DNA of 64,000 bases from Azonexus hydrophilus (GTDB lineage: Bacteria > Pseudomonadota > Gammaproteobacteria > Burkholderiales > Rhodocyclaceae), in contig NZ_CAJHOB010000009.1 of assembly GCF_905120355.1 (NCBI RefSeq), forward strand, positions 1-64,000, given 5' to 3'. Positions 27,120-34,995 of the stretch are shown one piece after another. The position numbers and the translations under genes are program-made. Numbering within the stretch: position 1 is the first letter of the stretch; the number at the start of each line of letters is the position of its first letter. The notes below the pieces were generated by a model. That model saw only the letters and a list, made by a program, of their open reading frames with translations. It searched no databases and was not told the DNA's origin.

Positions 27120-29078
27120 TCAGGACACGGACGGGCGACCACGGTATTCAATCGCCATGAGGGTGATGTCGTCGGATTGCGGCGCAGTACCGGCAAAAGC
27201 CTTGATACTGGCGACGGTCCCCTTGACCAGGTCAAAAATCGGTTCGCCCTGCAATTCATTGCACACCGCCAGCAGGCGCTGCTCGTCATACAACTCGTCT
27301 TGCAGGTTCATCGCCTCGGTCACGCCATCGGTGTAGAGCAGCAGGCGATCCCCTGGCGTCAGCCGCATCGTTTCCGCCTGATAAGGGTAATCCTCGACGG
27401 CCCCGATCACCAGCTGGCGGGTCTTGGGGAAATAGTGCGGCGGACCCTGGCGGGGAATCAGCAGCGGCGGGTTGTGTCCGGCATTGGTGTAGACCAGCGC
27501 CCCGTCGCGCAAATCGAGCACGGCGCAAAACACCGTGACAAACATGCTTTGATCGTTATCACGGGCCATCTGGTCATTCACCCGGGACAAGATTTCTGCC
27601 GGACTCAGATCCATTCTGGCGGTTGCCTTGATCAGGGTTTTGGTGACGGCCATGAATAACGAAGCGGGCACGCCCTTGCCGGAGACATCGGCAACGACCA
27701 GACAAAGATGATCATCATCGAGCTGGAAGAAATCGTAGAAATCGCCACCGACTTCCTTGGCCGGTTCGATCACGGCAAAAAGACTGAATTCTTCCCGATG
27801 CGGGAACGGGGGCAGCATTTTGGGCAGGATCGACATCTGAATGTCGTGCGCAATGCTCAGTTCGCCTTCGATACGTTCCTTGGCTGAGGTGGTCGCCACC
27901 AGATCGCGGATGTGTATCTGCAAATCCCGGTTCATTGCCGCGAACGCCCGGCTCAGATCACCCACTTCGTCATGTGCCGTCTGGGCCGGGAGCTGTACGT
28001 CAAAATCACCGTTACGCATGCGCCCGGCGGCAATCGCGAGGCTGTGCAGCGGCCGGGTGATCGAACGGGCAATCAGCACCACCACCAGCACAATCAGCAG
28101 AATGCCCAGCAGGCCAATCGCGGCGACCGTCAGCGTCAACTCGCGGATGCCGGCAAACAGTTCGCGCTCGGGAAAGACAATGGCCAGCGACCAACCCGCC
28201 GCAGGAATCGGACCGTAATAGAGGCGCGCCGGCGCACCGGCAAGGCCGCGATAGGGCACAAAACCGCTCTCGCCACGCAGCATGCGCCGGCCCACCTCGC
28301 GCAAGGCCGTGTCATCAGCGGCTTCCGCCAGACTGAAAATGGACTCGTTCATGACGTGGTCAGTAACGGGATGCGTCACAATCGAGCCGTTGCGTGACAG
28401 GAGAAAGGCATAACCGCTGTCCAGCACCTTGATCGCGCCAATCGTTTGCGCCAGCCAGTCAAGCGAGATATCGGCCGTGACGACGCCCATGAGGCGGCGC
28501 GTTGCCCCACTGCCCGCGTAAAACGGTACGGAATAGGTGGCCATCAGGGTATTGCCACCGCCTTCATCGAAGTAGGGCTCGCTCCAGCCGGCACGCTCCA
28601 GCTCCCGGGGAATCTGGTACCAGTCCTGCACCCGGTAGTCATAGGCGGCTTCAAGCTGGACGGTTTTGATTTCCGCGCCGTCGCGGTACGCATAAGGCGC
28701 GTGCAACCGAGCCGCACCGGCTGACCCCACAGGCTCGAAAGCAATGGTCGTGCCGTAGATTTCCGGATTGTTTTCGAGCGTGCGCTGCAGCATCTGCCGC
28801 ACACTCCGATCACTCGCCGGATCAACGCGCGGATCGTTGATCTGATCCTGCTCCAGTTGCCGCGCCGTGATTTCCACCACCCGTGCCGTGGTGCTCAACG
28901 CGGCTTCGACACGATTGGCCGAGGCCAGCGCAAGGTAATGGGCGCTGTTGGCGACTTCGGTTTCGATCAAGGCCCGCGAACGCAGGTGATTGAAACCGAG
29001 CATGCCGGCAAAAATGACCGAGGTACTCAGGGTTACTGCCAGAATCAGGCGCGCCCCGATCGTTTCAGCGAAGCGCAT
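27120..29078 (-). CDS. Membrane PP2C-type (SpoIIE) phosphatase with Cache sensor and HAMP
   Basis: Order in 652 residues: transmembrane helix at about 10-30, a large periplasmic double-Cache sensor (about 35-305, with WYQIPRELERAGWSEPYFDEGGG), a second helix near 315-335, HAMP, a short coiled coil, and a SpoIIE/RsbU phosphatase domain (about 415-645). Metal ligands are intact: EVGGDFYDFF, VADVSGKGVP, YTDGVTEAM, and QSDDITLMA. By family it should dephosphorylate a phospho-STAS protein, here most likely the product encoded at 30495-30827. It overlaps the upstream binding-protein gene by 14 bases, as the last gene of the operon. Confidence 0.92.
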   Translation of the reverse strand: MRFAETIGARLILAVTLSTSVIFAGMLGFNHLRSRALIETEVANSAHYLALASANRVEAALSTTARVVEITARQLEQDQINDPRVDPASDRSVRQMLQRTLENNPEIYGTTIAFEPVGSAGAARLHAPYAYRDGAEIKTVQLEAAYDYRVQDWYQIPRELERAGWSEPYFDEGGGNTLMATYSVPFYAGSGATRRLMGVVTADISLDWLAQTIGAIKVLDSGYAFLLSRNGSIVTHPVTDHVMNESIFSLAEAADDTALREVGRRMLRGESGFVPYRGLAGAPARLYYGPIPAAGWSLAIVFPERELFAGIRELTLTVAAIGLLGILLIVLVVVLIARSITRPLHSLAIAAGRMRNGDFDVQLPAQTAHDEVGDLSRAFAAMNRDLQIHIRDLVATTSAKERIEGELSIAHDIQMSILPKMLPPFPHREEFSLFAVIEPAKEVGGDFYDFFQLDDDHLCLVVADVSGKGVPASLFMAVTKTLIKATARMDLSPAEILSRVNDQMARDNDQSMFVTVFCAVLDLRDGALVYTNAGHNPPLLIPRQGPPHYFPKTRQLVIGAVEDYPYQAETMRLTPGDRLLLYTDGVTEAMNLQDELYDEQRLLAVCNELQGEPIFDLVKGTVASIKAFAGTAPQSDDITLMAIEYRGRPSVS

Positions 29079-30054
29079 GGTTGCCTTTCACGAAATCATC
29101 GTAATCCAGCGCCGCACGCACCAGGCCGCGCCGACGCAGTTCCTGCACCACCACCTGGTAGTCTTGCCGACTCAACTCTCCTACGCCGCTGCCCTCTGCC
29201 GGACGTATCAACGCCCGCATGCGCGACAGCATCCAGCGTTGATGCATGCGGTTCGCGGGCAGGCGCGCATCCTTGATGATGCGCAGCATGACATCGAGCG
29301 TTTCCTCGGGATGGGCAAACGCATACTCCCAGCCCTCCAGCGAGGCCCGGACAAAGGCGGACACCAGCTGCGGATCGCGGGCCACGGTTGTCTCCAGGGC
29401 GTACAAACCATCTTCCGGGTAATTCGCCCCATGCTCCTTGAGCGGAAACACGGTCAGCTCATCCTCATTCAAGCCGGAGTTGAGAATGCTGTGGTACTCG
29501 TTGTACTCCATCGCCGATACTGCCGCGATACCACCGCGCAGGAACAGGTTGACGGTTGCCGACTGCTGCACCGGCTGCACCTTCAGGCCATGCTGATCGA
29601 ACACACTATGCGGCGGAATATCGAAATCCCCACCCCACAACCCGACCTTTTTCCCCGCCAGATCGGCCAAGGTACGAATTCCTGAATCCTTGCGCGCTAC
29701 CAGCAGCATCGACGACTGTTGCACCACCTGGCCAATATGGACCAGTGGCAGCCCCGCGTCCCGCCGTTGCAGGGCGGTGGTCAGCCACAGGGCGGCGAAA
29801 TCGGCACGACCATCGCGCAGGTATTCGGACGGGTTGCGGCCCGGCCCCCCTTCGATAATGCTCAAATCGATACCGTGCTTGAGATAAATCCCCTTCTCTG
29901 CCGCCATGTAATAACCGGCAAACTGGGCCTGCGGCAGCCAGAGGGGAATGAAGCTCGCCTGTTTGACCGGCTCCGCCGCGCTAGCGGTTAGCGCGAAAAC
30001 AAGGAATAGGCCGCAGCTTAGCCAGCGGAGGATCAGGGAGGGAAAACGGGGCAT
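29065..30054 (-). CDS. NMT1/THI5-like periplasmic substrate-binding protein
   Basis: A 329-residue protein with a Sec signal peptide (ending ALTASAA near 26) and the NMT1/THI5-type fold: FIPLWLPQAQFAGYYMAAEKG, GGPGRNPSEYLRDGRADFA, and a central TVNLFLRGGIAAVSAMEYNE. Relatives bind pyrimidine precursors, nitrate, taurine or aromatic sulfonates for ABC import. Here no matching permease is adjacent; it sits between an RsbW-like ATPase and a Cache-phosphatase gene with which it overlaps. It may therefore present a ligand to the phosphatase's periplasmic sensor instead of to a transporter (inference). Confidence 0.85.
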   Translation of the reverse strand: MPRFPSLILRWLSCGLFLVFALTASAAEPVKQASFIPLWLPQAQFAGYYMAAEKGIYLKHGIDLSIIEGGPGRNPSEYLRDGRADFAALWLTTALQRRDAGLPLVHIGQVVQQSSMLLVARKDSGIRTLADLAGKKVGLWGGDFDIPPHSVFDQHGLKVQPVQQSATVNLFLRGGIAAVSAMEYNEYHSILNSGLNEDELTVFPLKEHGANYPEDGLYALETTVARDPQLVSAFVRASLEGWEYAFAHPEETLDVMLRIIKDARLPANRMHQRWMLSRMRALIRPAEGSGVGELSRQDYQVVVQELRRRGLVRAALDYDDFVKGNHALR

Positions 30055-30061
30055 GGTGATA

Positions 30062-30484
30062 TCAACGATTCAAGGTGAGGCGAACGACGTTACGTCCATC
30101 CTGCCGGAAACAATCCAGCTGATCTGCAATCTGACGAACCAGAAACCAGCCCAGGCCGCCGATTTTACGGTCCTCGATTGCCGCCGCCAGATCAGGTTCG
30201 CCAATCGAATTCATGTCAAAAGCAATACCCTCGTCGATAACTTCGGCCACAAATTGTGCCCCGGCAGCCCGACAGTTCAAGGTCACCGGTCCCGGGCCGG
30301 CAGGATAGGCGTAGTGGCAGATATTGACGAAAATCTCCTCGAACGCCATGGTCAGCATGCCGACACGCTTCGGCGCCAAGCCGAACGCGACGGCGCACGC
30401 GGCGAGATGTTCCTGCAAGGGCTCCAGGTTCACCAACTCCGCTGCCAGCGTCAGCGAATCGAATTCACTCGGCGTAGCGTTCAC
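30062..30484 (-). CDS. RsbW-like ATP-binding protein (serine kinase / anti-sigma type)
   Basis: The 140-residue protein is a stand-alone GHKL ATPase of the HATPase_c_2 type. The N box FEEIFVNICHYAY near 48-60, the G1 box DEGIAFD near 88-94, and the G2 box GGLGWFLVRQ near 115-124 are all intact, so ATP binding and kinase activity are plausible. In partner switching such proteins phosphorylate a STAS antagonist and sequester a target, often a sigma factor. The STAS gene lies 10 bases upstream. No sigma factor is in the operon, so the target may be another protein. Confidence 0.9.
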   Translation of the reverse strand: MNATPSEFDSLTLAAELVNLEPLQEHLAACAVAFGLAPKRVGMLTMAFEEIFVNICHYAYPAGPGPVTLNCRAAGAQFVAEVIDEGIAFDMNSIGEPDLAAAIEDRKIGGLGWFLVRQIADQLDCFRQDGRNVVRLTLNR

Positions 30485-30494
30485 CAGCGAGATC

Positions 30495-30827
30495 TCACAC
30501 CGCCGCCAGCGCCGCTGCCAGCGAGGAGTGGGTGCCGAGGATGGAGCTGAAGCCGGTCATCTCGAAGACCTCGCGCACATTGTCCTGCAGGTTGGCAAAC
30601 ACCACGGCGCCCCCCTTGGGCTTGAGCTGCTTGGCCGTCGACAACAACACGCGCAGCCCGGCGCTGCTGATATAGCTGAGATTGGCGAAATCGACGACCA
30701 GACGCGTCTTGTCTTCAGCAATGAGCTGACTGACGACTTTCTCGTAGTCGCCTGCCGATACGGCATCGAGCTTGCCCGTTACTGAAACGACATGTGCTGT
30801 ACCTGATTCCTGTACCTGAATTTCCAT
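30495..30827 (-). CDS. STAS-domain anti-sigma factor antagonist
   Basis: A 110-residue SpoIIAA/RsbV-type protein. The phosphorylation loop reads SYISSAGLRVLL with Ser54-Ser55 at the expected place, and VVSVTGKLDAVSAGDYEK forms the first strand-helix. The ATG at 30827 follows TGGAG; the longer frame upstream is unsupported. It should be phosphorylated by the adjacent RsbW-like ATPase and dephosphorylated by the SpoIIE phosphatase, completing a partner-switching triad in one operon. Confidence 0.92.
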   Translation of the reverse strand: MEIQVQESGTAHVVSVTGKLDAVSAGDYEKVVSQLIAEDKTRLVVDFANLSYISSAGLRVLLSTAKQLKPKGGAVVFANLQDNVREVFEMTGFSSILGTHSSLAAALAAV

Positions 30828-31055: not shown

Positions 31056-31463
31056 CTATTTCGCCGGTGCGACATTGGCCGAACCTTCCGCACCAACATA
31101 CACCGCCAGCAACCTGACCACGCCGCTCCCCTGATTCATGCCGCGATGCGGCACATGCATCGCCTCTACCAGCGCATCACCCTGGCGAAATGTTTTGACG
31201 CCCTCCGAGCCGTAATCGACAGTCAGCTCGCCTTCCAGAATATAGGCGACCAGCGGCACCGGATGCCGGTGAAACGCGGCAACAGCCCCCGGAGCGACCG
31301 TCACCACGGCAACGGTGATCTTGGGCGCACCGCTGGGGTACTGGATAGCCTCGCCGACAATCGTCTTGCCCGTCACCAGCAATTCCTGCACCGGGTAGTA
31401 GTTTGATTCTTGCGCCTGCGCGCCAGTAGCCAGCAGCGCCAACAACAGGATGAATTTTTTCAT
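31056..31463 (-). CDS. Exported cupin-domain protein
   Basis: The 135-residue protein has a signal peptide (MKKFILLLALLATGAQA) and one cupin barrel: PGAVAAFHRHPVPLVAYILEG gives motif 1 with two histidines and a later glutamate position, and GDALVEAMHVPHRG gives motif 2. Small periplasmic cupins bind metals or small ligands; no enzyme activity can be assigned. It starts eight bases after the ABC ATPase gene ends, so it belongs to the same transcript. A 228-base gap separates it from the STAS gene, where I see no other gene. Confidence 0.85.
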   Translation of the reverse strand: MKKFILLLALLATGAQAQESNYYPVQELLVTGKTIVGEAIQYPSGAPKITVAVVTVAPGAVAAFHRHPVPLVAYILEGELTVDYGSEGVKTFRQGDALVEAMHVPHRGMNQGSGVVRLLAVYVGAEGSANVAPAK

Positions 31464-31471
31464 GGGCCTCC

Positions 31472-32563
31472 TCAATCCGCAGCCAGACGAATCGACAAAC
31501 GGTTACCGTCGGCATCGGTGTGGTAGTCGATACTTTCGGCCAGATTGGTAATGATGGTCAGTCCCAGTTCGTCGGGCAGCGCGTCACTGTCCAGCGGGTT
31601 GGGGGCATCGCCCGGAGTGTCGAGGGTAAGCTCAAGCCGCCCGGTTTTCTCGGCATAACCGAGGGTAAGCTCCAGCGCTGCCGCGGCCAGGCGCGGCTGG
31701 TAAATGGCAAGCAGCTCCTCAACCAGCAGCAACAGATGCTGACGCGTCTTTTTCGGCAGAATCTGCTTCTCGCAAAACTGTTCGAGCTCGGCGTTGATGG
31801 CGTAAAGATCGAAGTCCGGACTATCGATACGCAGGCAGACGCTGCGAATACGATGAATGAAGGCGCGGGTTTTCTCGCGCTGCGGCTGATCGAAGATCTG
31901 CGCCGGTGTACCTTGCTCGTAGATAACACCTTCGTCCATGTAGAACACCCGGCTCGAGATGTCGCGCGCAAAATCCATTTCGTGGGTGACCACCAGCATG
32001 GTCAGCCCCTCCTTCGCCAGCCGCCGCATCACGGCCAGCACCTCGCTGACCATGGTTGGGTCGAGCGCCGAGGTCGGTTCATCGAAGAGGATGATTTGCG
32101 GCTCCATCGCCAGGCAACGGGCAATCGCCACGCGCTGTTTCTGCCCCCCCGAAAGTTCGTCGGGGAAGCTGCCGGCTTTTTCGGCCAGTCCGACCAGCTT
32201 GAGCAGTTCGCGCGCCTTGGCTTGCGCCTCGGCTTTGCGGGCGCCCAGCAGCTTAATCGGCCCTAGCGTCAGATTGTCCAGCACCGAAAGGTGGGCGAAA
32301 AGGTTGAAGGACTGGAACACCATGCCCATCTTGCGCCGCATTTTCGGCACGTCGGTGGCGGGGTCAAGCAAGTTGATGCCGTCAATCTCGATCCGGCCAC
32401 CGCTTGGCGGGTCAAGCAGGTTGAGGCAGCGCAGGAAGGTGCTCTTGCCGGTACCGGAAGGGCCGATGATGGAAATCACCTCACCTTTGGCAATATCGAC
32501 CGTGACATCCTTGAGCACGGTCAGCTCGCCATACCGTTTCGCCAAATGCTCGACCTTGATCAT
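31472..32563 (-). CDS. Amino-acid-type ABC transporter ATPase fused to a degenerate RsbW-like domain
   Basis: Residues 1-240 are a GlnQ-type ATPase: Walker [10 protein letters not shown] (34-42), Q loop VFQSFNLF, signature LSGGQKQR (138-144), Walker [13 protein letters not shown], and H loop THEMDF. Residues about 245-363 are an extra domain with a GHKL-like layout: [12 protein letters not shown] near 278-289 aligns with the N box but has isoleucine where the metal-binding asparagine should be, [11 protein letters not shown] replaces the G1 box, and [10 protein letters not shown] resembles G2. This suggests a non-catalytic protein-binding version of the RsbW fold. It overlaps the permease gene by ATGA. 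Confidence 0.9.
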
Positions 32564-34065
32564 GCGCGCCCTGCCTTGCGGCCGTATTTCGGATCGGTCA
32601 CTCGTTCCAGATACTCAAGGAATTGCAGCAATACCCAGGAAATCAGGAAATACAGGAGGGCGATCATCACCAGCGGGAAAAACGCATCGAAGGTGCGGCT
32701 GCGGATGATGTCGCTGGCCTTGGTCAGATCTTGCACGGCAATGTAACCGACGATTGAGGTCATCTTGACCAGGGAGATGAATTCGCCCTTGAACACCGGC
32801 AGGATGCGGTGGATGGTCTGCGGCAGGACGATGTTCACGAAGGTCGACAGTCGGGTAAAACCCAGGGCGATGCCGGCTTCGGTCTGCCCCTTGTCGACGC
32901 CCTGGATGCCGGTACGGAAAATCTCGGCGCTGTAGGCCGCAAAATTCAAGCCGAAAGCGATGACGGCGACCAGCACCGGGTCGATGTTCACCGAAGCGAA
33001 GACGACGTAGAAGATCAGCATCAGCAACACCAGCACCGGGGTACCGCGCAGGATGGCGATGTAGAGGCGGGCCGGCAGGTTGAGCAGGCGTCGCGCCGAC
33101 ATGCGCATGAAACAGATCGCGCCACCAAGCAGCGTACCCAGGAGGGTCGAGAATACGGAAATGATGACCGTGGTCTTCAAGCCGTCCCAGATCAGCAGGT
33201 AACGATCCTCAACGAGGATGTTGCTATGAAAACTGGCTGCAACACCTCGCAACCAGCGTGCAATCGCATTACGCTCGACTGCTGCGGCAGGCTGCGGCGC
33301 CAGCACCAGGGCACTGATATCGTTGCCAAGATAAGGCCTTGAGTAACGGATCAGCTTCTTGCGCTCCTCCGTGACGTTGAAATTGGAAATTGCGAGATCA
33401 ATCTTTTTCGACTGCAGCGCCGGAATCAGTGCTTCAAAGTTGTAGTCCACAATTTCAATGCGCCGGTCGAGACGCTGACCGATCAGATGAATCAGTTCAA
33501 TATCCAGACCCGCCAGCGCGCCATACGCATAAAAAGTAAACGGTTCGTTCTGGCCGCTGGTCCCCACGCGCAGCACACGCCCCTTGCCCACATGATCAAC
33601 CCGGGACATCGGTGGTGGCGTGGTGTAGTGGCTATCGAGCCACTTGGCGCGCAGGCGCTGCAACTCGCCTTCCTGTTCGAGTGCAGTGAGTGCAGCATCA
33701 ATGTCGGCCTGCAGCGCCGCGTTGTCTTTATGCATTGCCACTGCAACATCGAGCCGTGCAACTGCTTGATCGAGGATATGCAATTGCGGGTTTTTCGCTA
33801 CCAGATTGAAGAGCACGCTCTTGTCAAAGACGTACGCATCGACTTTACCGGTAGCCACTGCCAACGCCGCATCCGAAGAAGTATTCAATTCGACAAAGTG
33901 CGCTGCGGGGAAGTACTTGCGTGCGGCGAGATCACCGGCTGAGCCCGTCAACACCGCAATCCGCTTGCCATCCAGATCTTGCAGGCGCGGCGCAGCATCC
34001 TGCGCCCAGCAGACTCCCGCAGCAAGCCACAGGCCCACAGCGATCAGTTGCAGAAACCTGCTCAT
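32560..34065 (-). CDS. Fused ABC solute-binding (permuted) and permease protein
   Basis: A signal peptide (about 1-22) precedes a solute-binding region and a His/Glu/Gln-type permease with about five helices (about 288-495; TAAYSAE-like [21 protein letters not shown] and EAGIALG are the EAA region). The binding region is in unusual order. Residues 28-147 ([15 protein letters not shown], then [17 protein letters not shown]) correspond to the second half of an SBP_bac_3 domain, and residues 162-257 ([15 protein letters not shown], then [14 protein letters not shown]) to its first half. It ends overlapping the ATPase gene by four bases. Confidence 0.88.
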
Positions 34066-34870
34066 CGCCAGCCGACCAGGGCTTTGTTTCCCGCACTAGG
34101 GCAGCAATGCCACCGGTGTAATAAGGTTCGGAGAACAGCACTTTCTGGGCGCGCTCGTCAGTAATGGTGATGCAAGCGGCAATCATATCGACCTTGCCGG
34201 AAATCAGGGCGGGAATCAGCGAGCCAAATTCCATGTTCACCACTTCCAGCGTCTTGCCCTGCTGCTTCGCCACCCGTTTGGCCAACTCGATATCGAAACC
34301 GACCACCTGCTGCGAGCCATCGACAAAAGAGAAAGGTTCAGTGACGGCGGCGGTGCCGAGCTTCAGCACACCCGCTGCTCCCTCCACGGGAATCTCCGGC
34401 ATCGCCGCCGGATTCCCTTTTTTCGGGAACCAGCGTGCCTGCATTTCATCGTAGCCGCCGCCCTGTCTCAGTTCCTTGACGACTGAATCAATCGCCACCT
34501 TGAGCGCACGGTTTTCCGGCGATACGGCAAAACCATAGTTGTCGACGGTGATCATCTCCGGCAACACCTTCAAGCCATCATTCTTGGCAGCAATATTTTT
34601 CAGGATCGGCTCATCGTACGCCACCGCATCGGCCTTGCCTGCCTTGACTGCCAGGGCGGCATCAAGCACCGTATTGAAATACTGGAATTTGGCCTGCGGA
34701 AATTTTGACAGCACCAGCGTGTCAGCCGCTGTGCCGGTGGGCACCGCAAAGGATTTATCTGCCAGCTGCGGCAGGCTGGTGATTTCTGCTTTCTGTGCAC
34801 ACCCTCCCGCCAGAAGCAACACCGACAGCATGAAACAGCCACTCAAAACCCTGGAACGCAGTTTGCCCAT
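33932..34870 (-). pseudogene. Permuted ABC solute-binding lipoprotein, probably frameshifted near its 3' end
   Basis: It starts at ATG 34870 after GGGGGAG, with a lipoprotein signal (LLLAGGC, Cys24). Residues 33-150 match the second half and about 168-260 the first half of an SBP_bac_3 domain, the same permuted order as the next gene. After Arg260 the frame runs 134 bases into the downstream gene and becomes cysteine-rich nonsense. Adding one G to the GGG at 34092-34090 (minus strand) would instead give [11 protein letters not shown] and a stop at 34062, overlapping the next ATG as ATGA. A sequencing indel or a real mutation is possible; the protein is otherwise intact. Confidence 0.75.
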
Positions 34871-34995
34871 CACAGTCTCCCCCTGAAAGACCGGCAGTAT
34901 AATTCGGCTTTTCTAGGTTCGCGCACCCAGGTTCGCGCAAAACTCCCAGATTCGCTCGCAAAATCCCGAATCTGACAACAGGAGACGCACACACC

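Follow-up and report, generated by a model that had tools for sequence, protein, structure and literature searches.

We found that an ABC importer ATPase encoded in the window (the whole stretch of 64,000 nucleotides of Azonexus hydrophilus DNA that was analyzed) ends in a C-terminal tail that, as modeled, is a GHKL fold of the RsbW/SpoIIAB type. Judged by its aligned residues, this tail is a pseudokinase, lacking those on which ATP binding and catalysis depend. Genes for a STAS protein, a free RsbW-type kinase, and a SpoIIE-type phosphatase lie nearby on the same strand, and the observed arrangement suggests, without proving, that a phosphorylation switch controls the importer. The more specific reading is that a partner switch has an ABC importer as its output and that STAS, when unphosphorylated, docks onto the dead kinase tail; we regard it as evenly poised between right and wrong.

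The ATPase and the fold of its tail

The ATPase gene (31472-32563, minus strand; the original prediction had given no strand) is a real ORF of 363 amino acids with an ATG start. Its first 235 residues (31859..32563, minus strand) form an intact nucleotide-binding domain: Pfam ABC_tran matches the protein over residues 17-165 (E = 1.3e-35), and in 75 aligned members the residues of Walker A, the signature, Walker B, and the H-loop do not vary, in agreement with the intact amino-acid ABC ATPase originally read there. No named NCBIfam equivalog scores above its cut-off; the best models for residues 1-235 are the ectoine (EhuA, 298.9 bits against a cut-off of 345.4) and glutamine (GlnQ) importer ATPases, both under cut-off. 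An SBP_bac_3 binding protein and a matching permease are encoded alongside, and the ATPase is of the polar-amino-acid ABC importer type.

The tail, some 125 residues C-terminal to the ABC ATPase domain, was modeled over residues 233-363 (31475..31867, minus strand). HATPase_c_2 (PF13581) matches residues 253-359 (E = 2.5e-5) with a whole-protein score of 24.7 bits, under the cut-off of 27.4; searched alone, the tail reaches 28.4 bits, just over it. The same model is matched (E up to 0.01) by 45 of 79 family tails, these being the window and 78 of the 80 other loci described below (L077, where the frame is broken, and L052, a near-copy of L049, were left out). Profile-profile comparison of the tails with 14 free RsbW proteins gave a match at 97.9% (E = 4.6e-13). 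An AlphaFold2 model of the tail built from a 79-sequence input (pLDDT 91.5, pTM 0.85; for the full-length ATPase, 91.6 and 0.75) has the element order beta-alpha-alpha-beta-beta-alpha-beta-beta. Every one of the top 18 Foldseek matches of this model is an RsbW, SpoIIAB, or UsfX chain (best E = 6.3e-6); the entries of 14 of these chains also contain their STAS antagonists, and those of the other four a sigma factor. VIA-align ranks UsfX first (Z = 13.6), followed by RsbW and SpoIIAB (12.6), the RsbW domain of Rv1364c (12.0), and SiaB (11.9); a Leptospira regulator (10.9) stands further down, and histidine kinases come next at 7.1 or less. Neither phmmer with the tail nor the tail profile found any RsbW among PDB sequences, so that the relation to RsbW must be distant, and the tail alone matched no NCBIfam model at E up to 0.001.

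The RsbW-like layout proposed earlier for the C-terminal part is thus upheld by the profile comparison, the AlphaFold model, Foldseek, and VIA-align, and the fold comparison with HATPase_c_2 proteins (RsbW, SpoIIAB) suggested at the time led, by structure prediction, to RsbW-type kinases (Z = 11.9-13.6). A NIL or CBS-like domain, named then as the outcome that would count against it, is not among the Pfam matches of the 79 tails at E up to 0.01; one member has a stray match to a complement CUB model, and otherwise no other ligand domain was matched. We rejected a different fold on these grounds and because the structural matches are to RsbW types, an exclusion that on the structural side covers the families represented among the VIA-align rows.

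Loss of kinase residues

The N-box of the tail (residues 282-287; 31703..31720, minus strand) is degenerate in the alignments: It retains Glu-Glu and has Ile in place of Asn at residue 287. This substitution and an altered G1 box had both been noticed in the original prediction, and both hold up on alignment. Across the family, the N-box Asn is found in none of the 79 tails (Ile in 34, Leu in 32, Met in five, Val and Glu in three each, Arg and Ala in one each). The G1 Asp is likewise found in 0/79, with Ser at that position in 49; the preceding column has Glu in 56 tails and Asp in eight. In the profile alignment of the tails with free RsbW there is a gap of about 11 residues at the ATP lid, and the G2 Gly-Gly is replaced. 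None of these motif residues (N-box Asn, G1 Asp, and G2 Gly-Gly) varies in the 14 free RsbW proteins, 12 of which come from tail loci, or in the eight members of a second free-RsbW set that has one row in common with the first. With the N-box Asn and the G1 Asp gone from every tail, the predicted loss of ATP hydrolysis is borne out at the level of residues, and an active kinase was rejected.

Not all of the nucleotide site has gone, since the G1 Gly and the Asn that follows it are each retained in 70 of 79 tails. These would be expected if the tail had an allosteric site for a small ligand, possibly a nucleotide, and the tail sits where importer ATPases usually carry C-terminal regulatory domains, such as those of MetN and OpuA. 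However, the Asn, the Asp, and the lid for Mg-ATP are missing at the aligned positions, and apart from the CUB match the Pfam search of the 79 tails (E up to 0.01) gave no NIL, CBS, or other ligand domain; we consider this explanation very improbable.

The second Glu of the N-box, residue 283 of the ATPase, is retained in 76 of 79 tails. In crystal structures of RsbV-RsbW, RsbW Glu49 touches RsbV Ser56, the residue that is phosphorylated (excerpts of PMC7340262); the register from tail to Glu49 is indirect, running from tail to free RsbW to PDB chain. By this comparison, ATP handling seems to have been lost from the tail and a contact to the STAS serine retained, and the Glu may have been kept because of that contact. 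The strictest residues of the tail are Asp20, Phe31, and Glu73 (79/79 each). They are common to loci with and without STAS and so speak for another duty, for example packing or dimerization. Columns that are tighter in STAS-linked tails include Gly102 (23/25 vs. 30/54) and Leu103 (23/25 vs. 24/54) of the G2 face, but the stronger constraint on the G2/alpha3 face in STAS-linked tails is not significant when relatedness is controlled (four usable pairs, median P = 1).

Gene neighborhood in the window

All genes of the neighborhood lie on the minus strand, in the order binding protein, binding domain/permease, ATPase, cupin, then after about 230 bp STAS, RsbW, NMT1, and SpoIIE. Upstream of the ATPase are a separate binding protein (33932..34873), whose ORF has 134 nt in common with the permease gene, and a permease with a fused binding domain (32560..34065); by their half-domain matches, both binding domains are circularly permuted. 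Downstream, the cupin gene (31056..31475; PF07883, E = 2e-13) stands between the ATPase and STAS genes and shares its first 4 nt with the end of the former; a related cupin lies near one other locus (L095). The STAS gene that had been proposed as a partner is indeed there (30495-30827; PF01740, E = 1e-20), and its linkage to the ATPase recurs in other lineages. It encodes a protein of the anti-sigma antagonist type with the conserved serine, Ser-Ser being invariant in 28 of 28 aligned STAS proteins. It is followed by a free RsbW-type kinase (30062..30484; PF13581, E = 1.2e-23) whose motifs are intact on alignment, an NMT1-type periplasmic binding protein (29065..30054; PF09084, E = 1.5e-42), and a sensor phosphatase of dCache-HAMP-SpoIIE architecture (27120..29078; PF07228, E = 2.8e-54, with PF02743 and PF00672).

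A second RsbW-STAS-SpoIIE cluster is present on the same contig at about 64.2-67.2 kb, just past the window (4188-7220 of L011), and its RsbW ranks second among the matches of the tail profile within this genome. The genome has nine STAS and five SpoIIE genes in total.

Circularly permuted binding domains

Residues 156-247 of the permease-fused domain correspond to positions 3-95 of the amino-acid binding protein 6svf and residues 26-143 to positions 110-227, so the two halves of the domain run C then N. Among 109 ORFs of at least 180 amino acids with half-domains (C, N) or permease, we counted 30 CN, 15 CN-permease, 21 (CN)2-permease, 12 (CN)3-permease, six (CN)4-permease, one CNCN, 19 permease alone, three N alone, and two N-permease; the order starts with C in every ORF that has both halves. 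Permuted domains thus occur both in the window and in related loci (L019-L098), as chains of one to four ahead of the permease. In GlnPQ-type importers, too, amino-acid binding domains stand in tandem on the permease, to which they are fused; here, in contrast, the halves are circularly permuted and the ATPase bears the tail. The only comparable natural permuted binding protein that we found in the open-licence literature is TpMglB-2, a precedent from another binding-protein class (excerpts of PMC4990184).

Binding-domain chains of up to four would suit sensing, and the flow of information might then be the reverse of the one we propose: The importer would be the sensor, and the tail would hold or free STAS according to the transport state, the freed STAS or RsbW acting elsewhere in the cell. 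Importers do act as sensors in Pst-PhoU and BceAB, and the same gene linkage would be expected. Such a reading is nevertheless unlikely in our view, the cassette having already its own sensor phosphatase and NMT1 protein.

Distribution of the tail

One scan of genome contigs, with a four-row tail alignment as query, gave 88 tail relatives, of which 80 were kept; it required one of two short patterns, and the numbers are therefore no census. In 79 of these 80 other loci the tail lies about 100 residues past the ABC signature, in the same frame and at similar spacing (the frame is broken in L077), so we rejected a chance fusion or an assembly error. By their record titles, 31 loci belong to Pseudomonadota, 21 to Chlorobiota, eight to Thermodesulfobacteriota, five to Bacillota, and four to Bacteroidota, with eight more spread over six other phyla (11 phyla overall) and three unassigned. 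Some titles are doubtful; many of the records come from MAGs, and several names seem mistaken. Three environmental MAGs whose titles name Klebsiella pneumoniae, Planktophila, and Janthinobacterium (L087, L091, and L092) carry a tail-ATPase operon; L091 is nearly identical on the tree to a proteobacterium MAG (L090), which makes such titles look unreliable.

The closest relative of the window ATPase, at 88%, is from Rhodocyclus purpureus. In that locus (L019) two divergent tail-ATPase operons adjoin, and the partner cassette lies several kilobases downstream on the opposite strand; in a Pelotomaculum MAG (L093) two ATPase-plus-tail ORFs stand in tandem. The tail was found in none of 24 other searched genomes of the window's genus, several of them incomplete. 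Class-wide, 4 of 274 genomes have a tail match, one of these being an ORF of 165 amino acids, too short for an ATPase. The spread is patchy and resembles that of a system that is transferred or frequently lost. No relative was found on viral contigs, and none on plasmids with the tail alone as query; the whole-ATPase query found a Selenomonas plasmid copy that carries the tail. A Sinorhizobium locus (H4/L003), full-length in tblastn, was rejected as a tail bearer, its ATPase ending before the tail.

The tree comprises 75 rows (L028, L052, L073, L077, L092, and L094 were left out). L021/L059 and L079/L081 are pairs that each come from one record set, and we took L078 and L080 to be the same contigs as G239 and G057.

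Linkage to partner-switching genes

STAS is the next gene downstream of the ATPase, on the same strand and at a gap of -28 to 90 bp, in 19 of the 80 loci. Anywhere in the stretch examined, STAS is present in 25 loci, RsbW in 19, SpoIIE in 20, NMT1 in 14, and all four in 10. The arrangement varies: In two MAGs, one of Chlorobium (L022) and one of Geobacteraceae (L039), the order is NMT1, SpoIIE, binding/permease, ATPase, STAS, RsbW, and in six loci (L035, L036, L040, L041, L045, and L059) a convergent RsbW-like gene lies behind STAS. The tail-ATPase occurs together with partner genes also in records titled Methylobacter tundripaludum OWC-G53F, M. marinus A45, and Rhodocyclus purpureus DSM 168.

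For comparison, retrieval with the ATPase domain only gave 48 loci, two of which bear the tail. None of the other 46, which represent only the best ATPase matches for which loci were obtained, has STAS, RsbW, or SpoIIE within an equally long stretch (P = 1.3e-4 against the 19 of 80 with STAS, Fisher's test, uncorrected for kinship). On the tree of 75 proteins the STAS-adjacency label changes at least 10 times, five of these changes being forced by supported branches; the adjacent group on the tree takes in the window, with its cupin between, and L029, with one gene between, neither of which is in the count of 19.

Linkage is not a rule: Among the 54 loci that extend 3 kb or more to each side, 37 have none of the four partner genes. 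Two genomes without linked STAS, searched as a whole, have eight STAS and six SpoIIE genes (G057) and four and eight (G239), so unlinked partners may be available in them. Conversely, the cassette has a life of its own. The NMT1 protein is matched at E up to 1e-40 in 3 of 274 genomes of the class: the window's own; G146, in which a STAS-NMT1-SpoIIE cassette (7644-10897 of L102) has no ATPase or tail nearby; and G230, in which the match adjoins a different ABC ATPase gene, without STAS or SpoIIE.

Both the loci without partners and the solitary cassette would follow readily if the tail were a structural or dimerization domain only, with no STAS binding, and the cassette an independent module that travels along. 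The invariant residues common to loci with and without STAS point the same way, as does the dimerization of RsbW through alpha1 and beta1 (excerpts of PMC7340262). Against this, STAS adjacency recurs on the tree and is absent from the 46 tail-less controls, and the Glu that in RsbW touches the STAS serine is retained in 76 of 79 tails. We think a purely structural tail fairly unlikely.

Discussion

In the partner-switch reading that we prefer, the NMT1 protein and the dCache sensor would set the SpoIIE phosphatase by a periplasmic ligand, RsbW would phosphorylate STAS at its conserved serine, and the phosphatase would reverse this. Unphosphorylated STAS, we infer, docks on the tail through the same face with which RsbV meets RsbW, and would be freed by phosphorylation. 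The two tails of the ATPase dimer could form a platform, and STAS occupancy would either favor or block closure of the ATPase dimer; the action of unphosphorylated EIIA-Glc on MalK is a model for such an effect. RsbW dimers meet via alpha1/beta1 with one STAS per side (excerpts of PMC7340262), and since domains of this type dimerize in that way, the two tails could assemble likewise.

This reading draws on the RsbW-fold tail, its pseudokinase residues, the kept Glu, the STAS linkage, the recurrent adjacency, and the invariant STAS serines. Weighing against it are the 37 of 54 loci without partners, the importer-free cassette, the cupin and some 230 bp that precede the window STAS, the nonsignificant test of the G2 face, the strictest residues being common to STAS-less loci, and the failure of the PDB sequence searches to find RsbW. 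The general proposal is that partner switching gates ABC importers through an ATPase-fused pseudokinase dock for STAS, and that the system occurs here and there across many phyla, with circularly permuted binding domains feeding it; to this we attach slightly less than even confidence.

Several known systems share parts of this arrangement. Importers regulated via the C-terminal domain of the ATPase include MalK with EIIA-Glc, MetN, and OpuA; those domains have other folds, and what regulates them is a PTS protein or a small ligand. The SpoIIE/RsbU, RsbV/SpoIIAA, and RsbW/SpoIIAB switches of Bacillus subtilis have, as here, a phosphatase, a serine-bearing STAS protein, and an RsbW kinase with intact motifs, and the tail has the fold of that kinase; the difference is the extra RsbW-type domain, a pseudokinase to judge from its residues, on an ABC ATPase. 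SiaABCD of Pseudomonas aeruginosa likewise has a phosphatase, a kinase, and a switch protein, and its output is not a sigma factor (abstract of PMC8457831). With Z = 11.9, the structure of SiaB is among the matches of the tail, and the window phosphatase matches the SiaA model weakly (95 of 700 bits). In SiaABCD, however, the output is a diguanylate cyclase stalk and there is no importer with an RsbW-like domain.

In MlaFB of Escherichia coli, the STAS protein MlaB works with the ABC ATPase MlaF, as may be the case here; unlike the docking we propose, MlaB binds the ATPase domain proper, and the C terminus of MlaF is an extension of about 25 residues with no RsbW domain (excerpts of PMC7367683). 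In the same excerpts, the authors report no other PDB entry with both STAS and ABC domains, leave open whether MlaB is phosphorylated in cells, and describe the post-translational regulation of ABC transporters as poorly understood (PMC7367683). We found no description of an RsbW-type domain on an importer ATPase in the open-licence literature. Partner switching is already known for sigma factors and a diguanylate cyclase, and the new element would be an importer as its output.

Since the genes for the kinase, the phosphatase, the STAS protein, and the ATPase with its candidate dock lie together, here and in records titled as named strains, the idea is directly testable. If it is true, transporters would be added to the known outputs of partner switching, and a defined job could be assigned to a pseudokinase domain.
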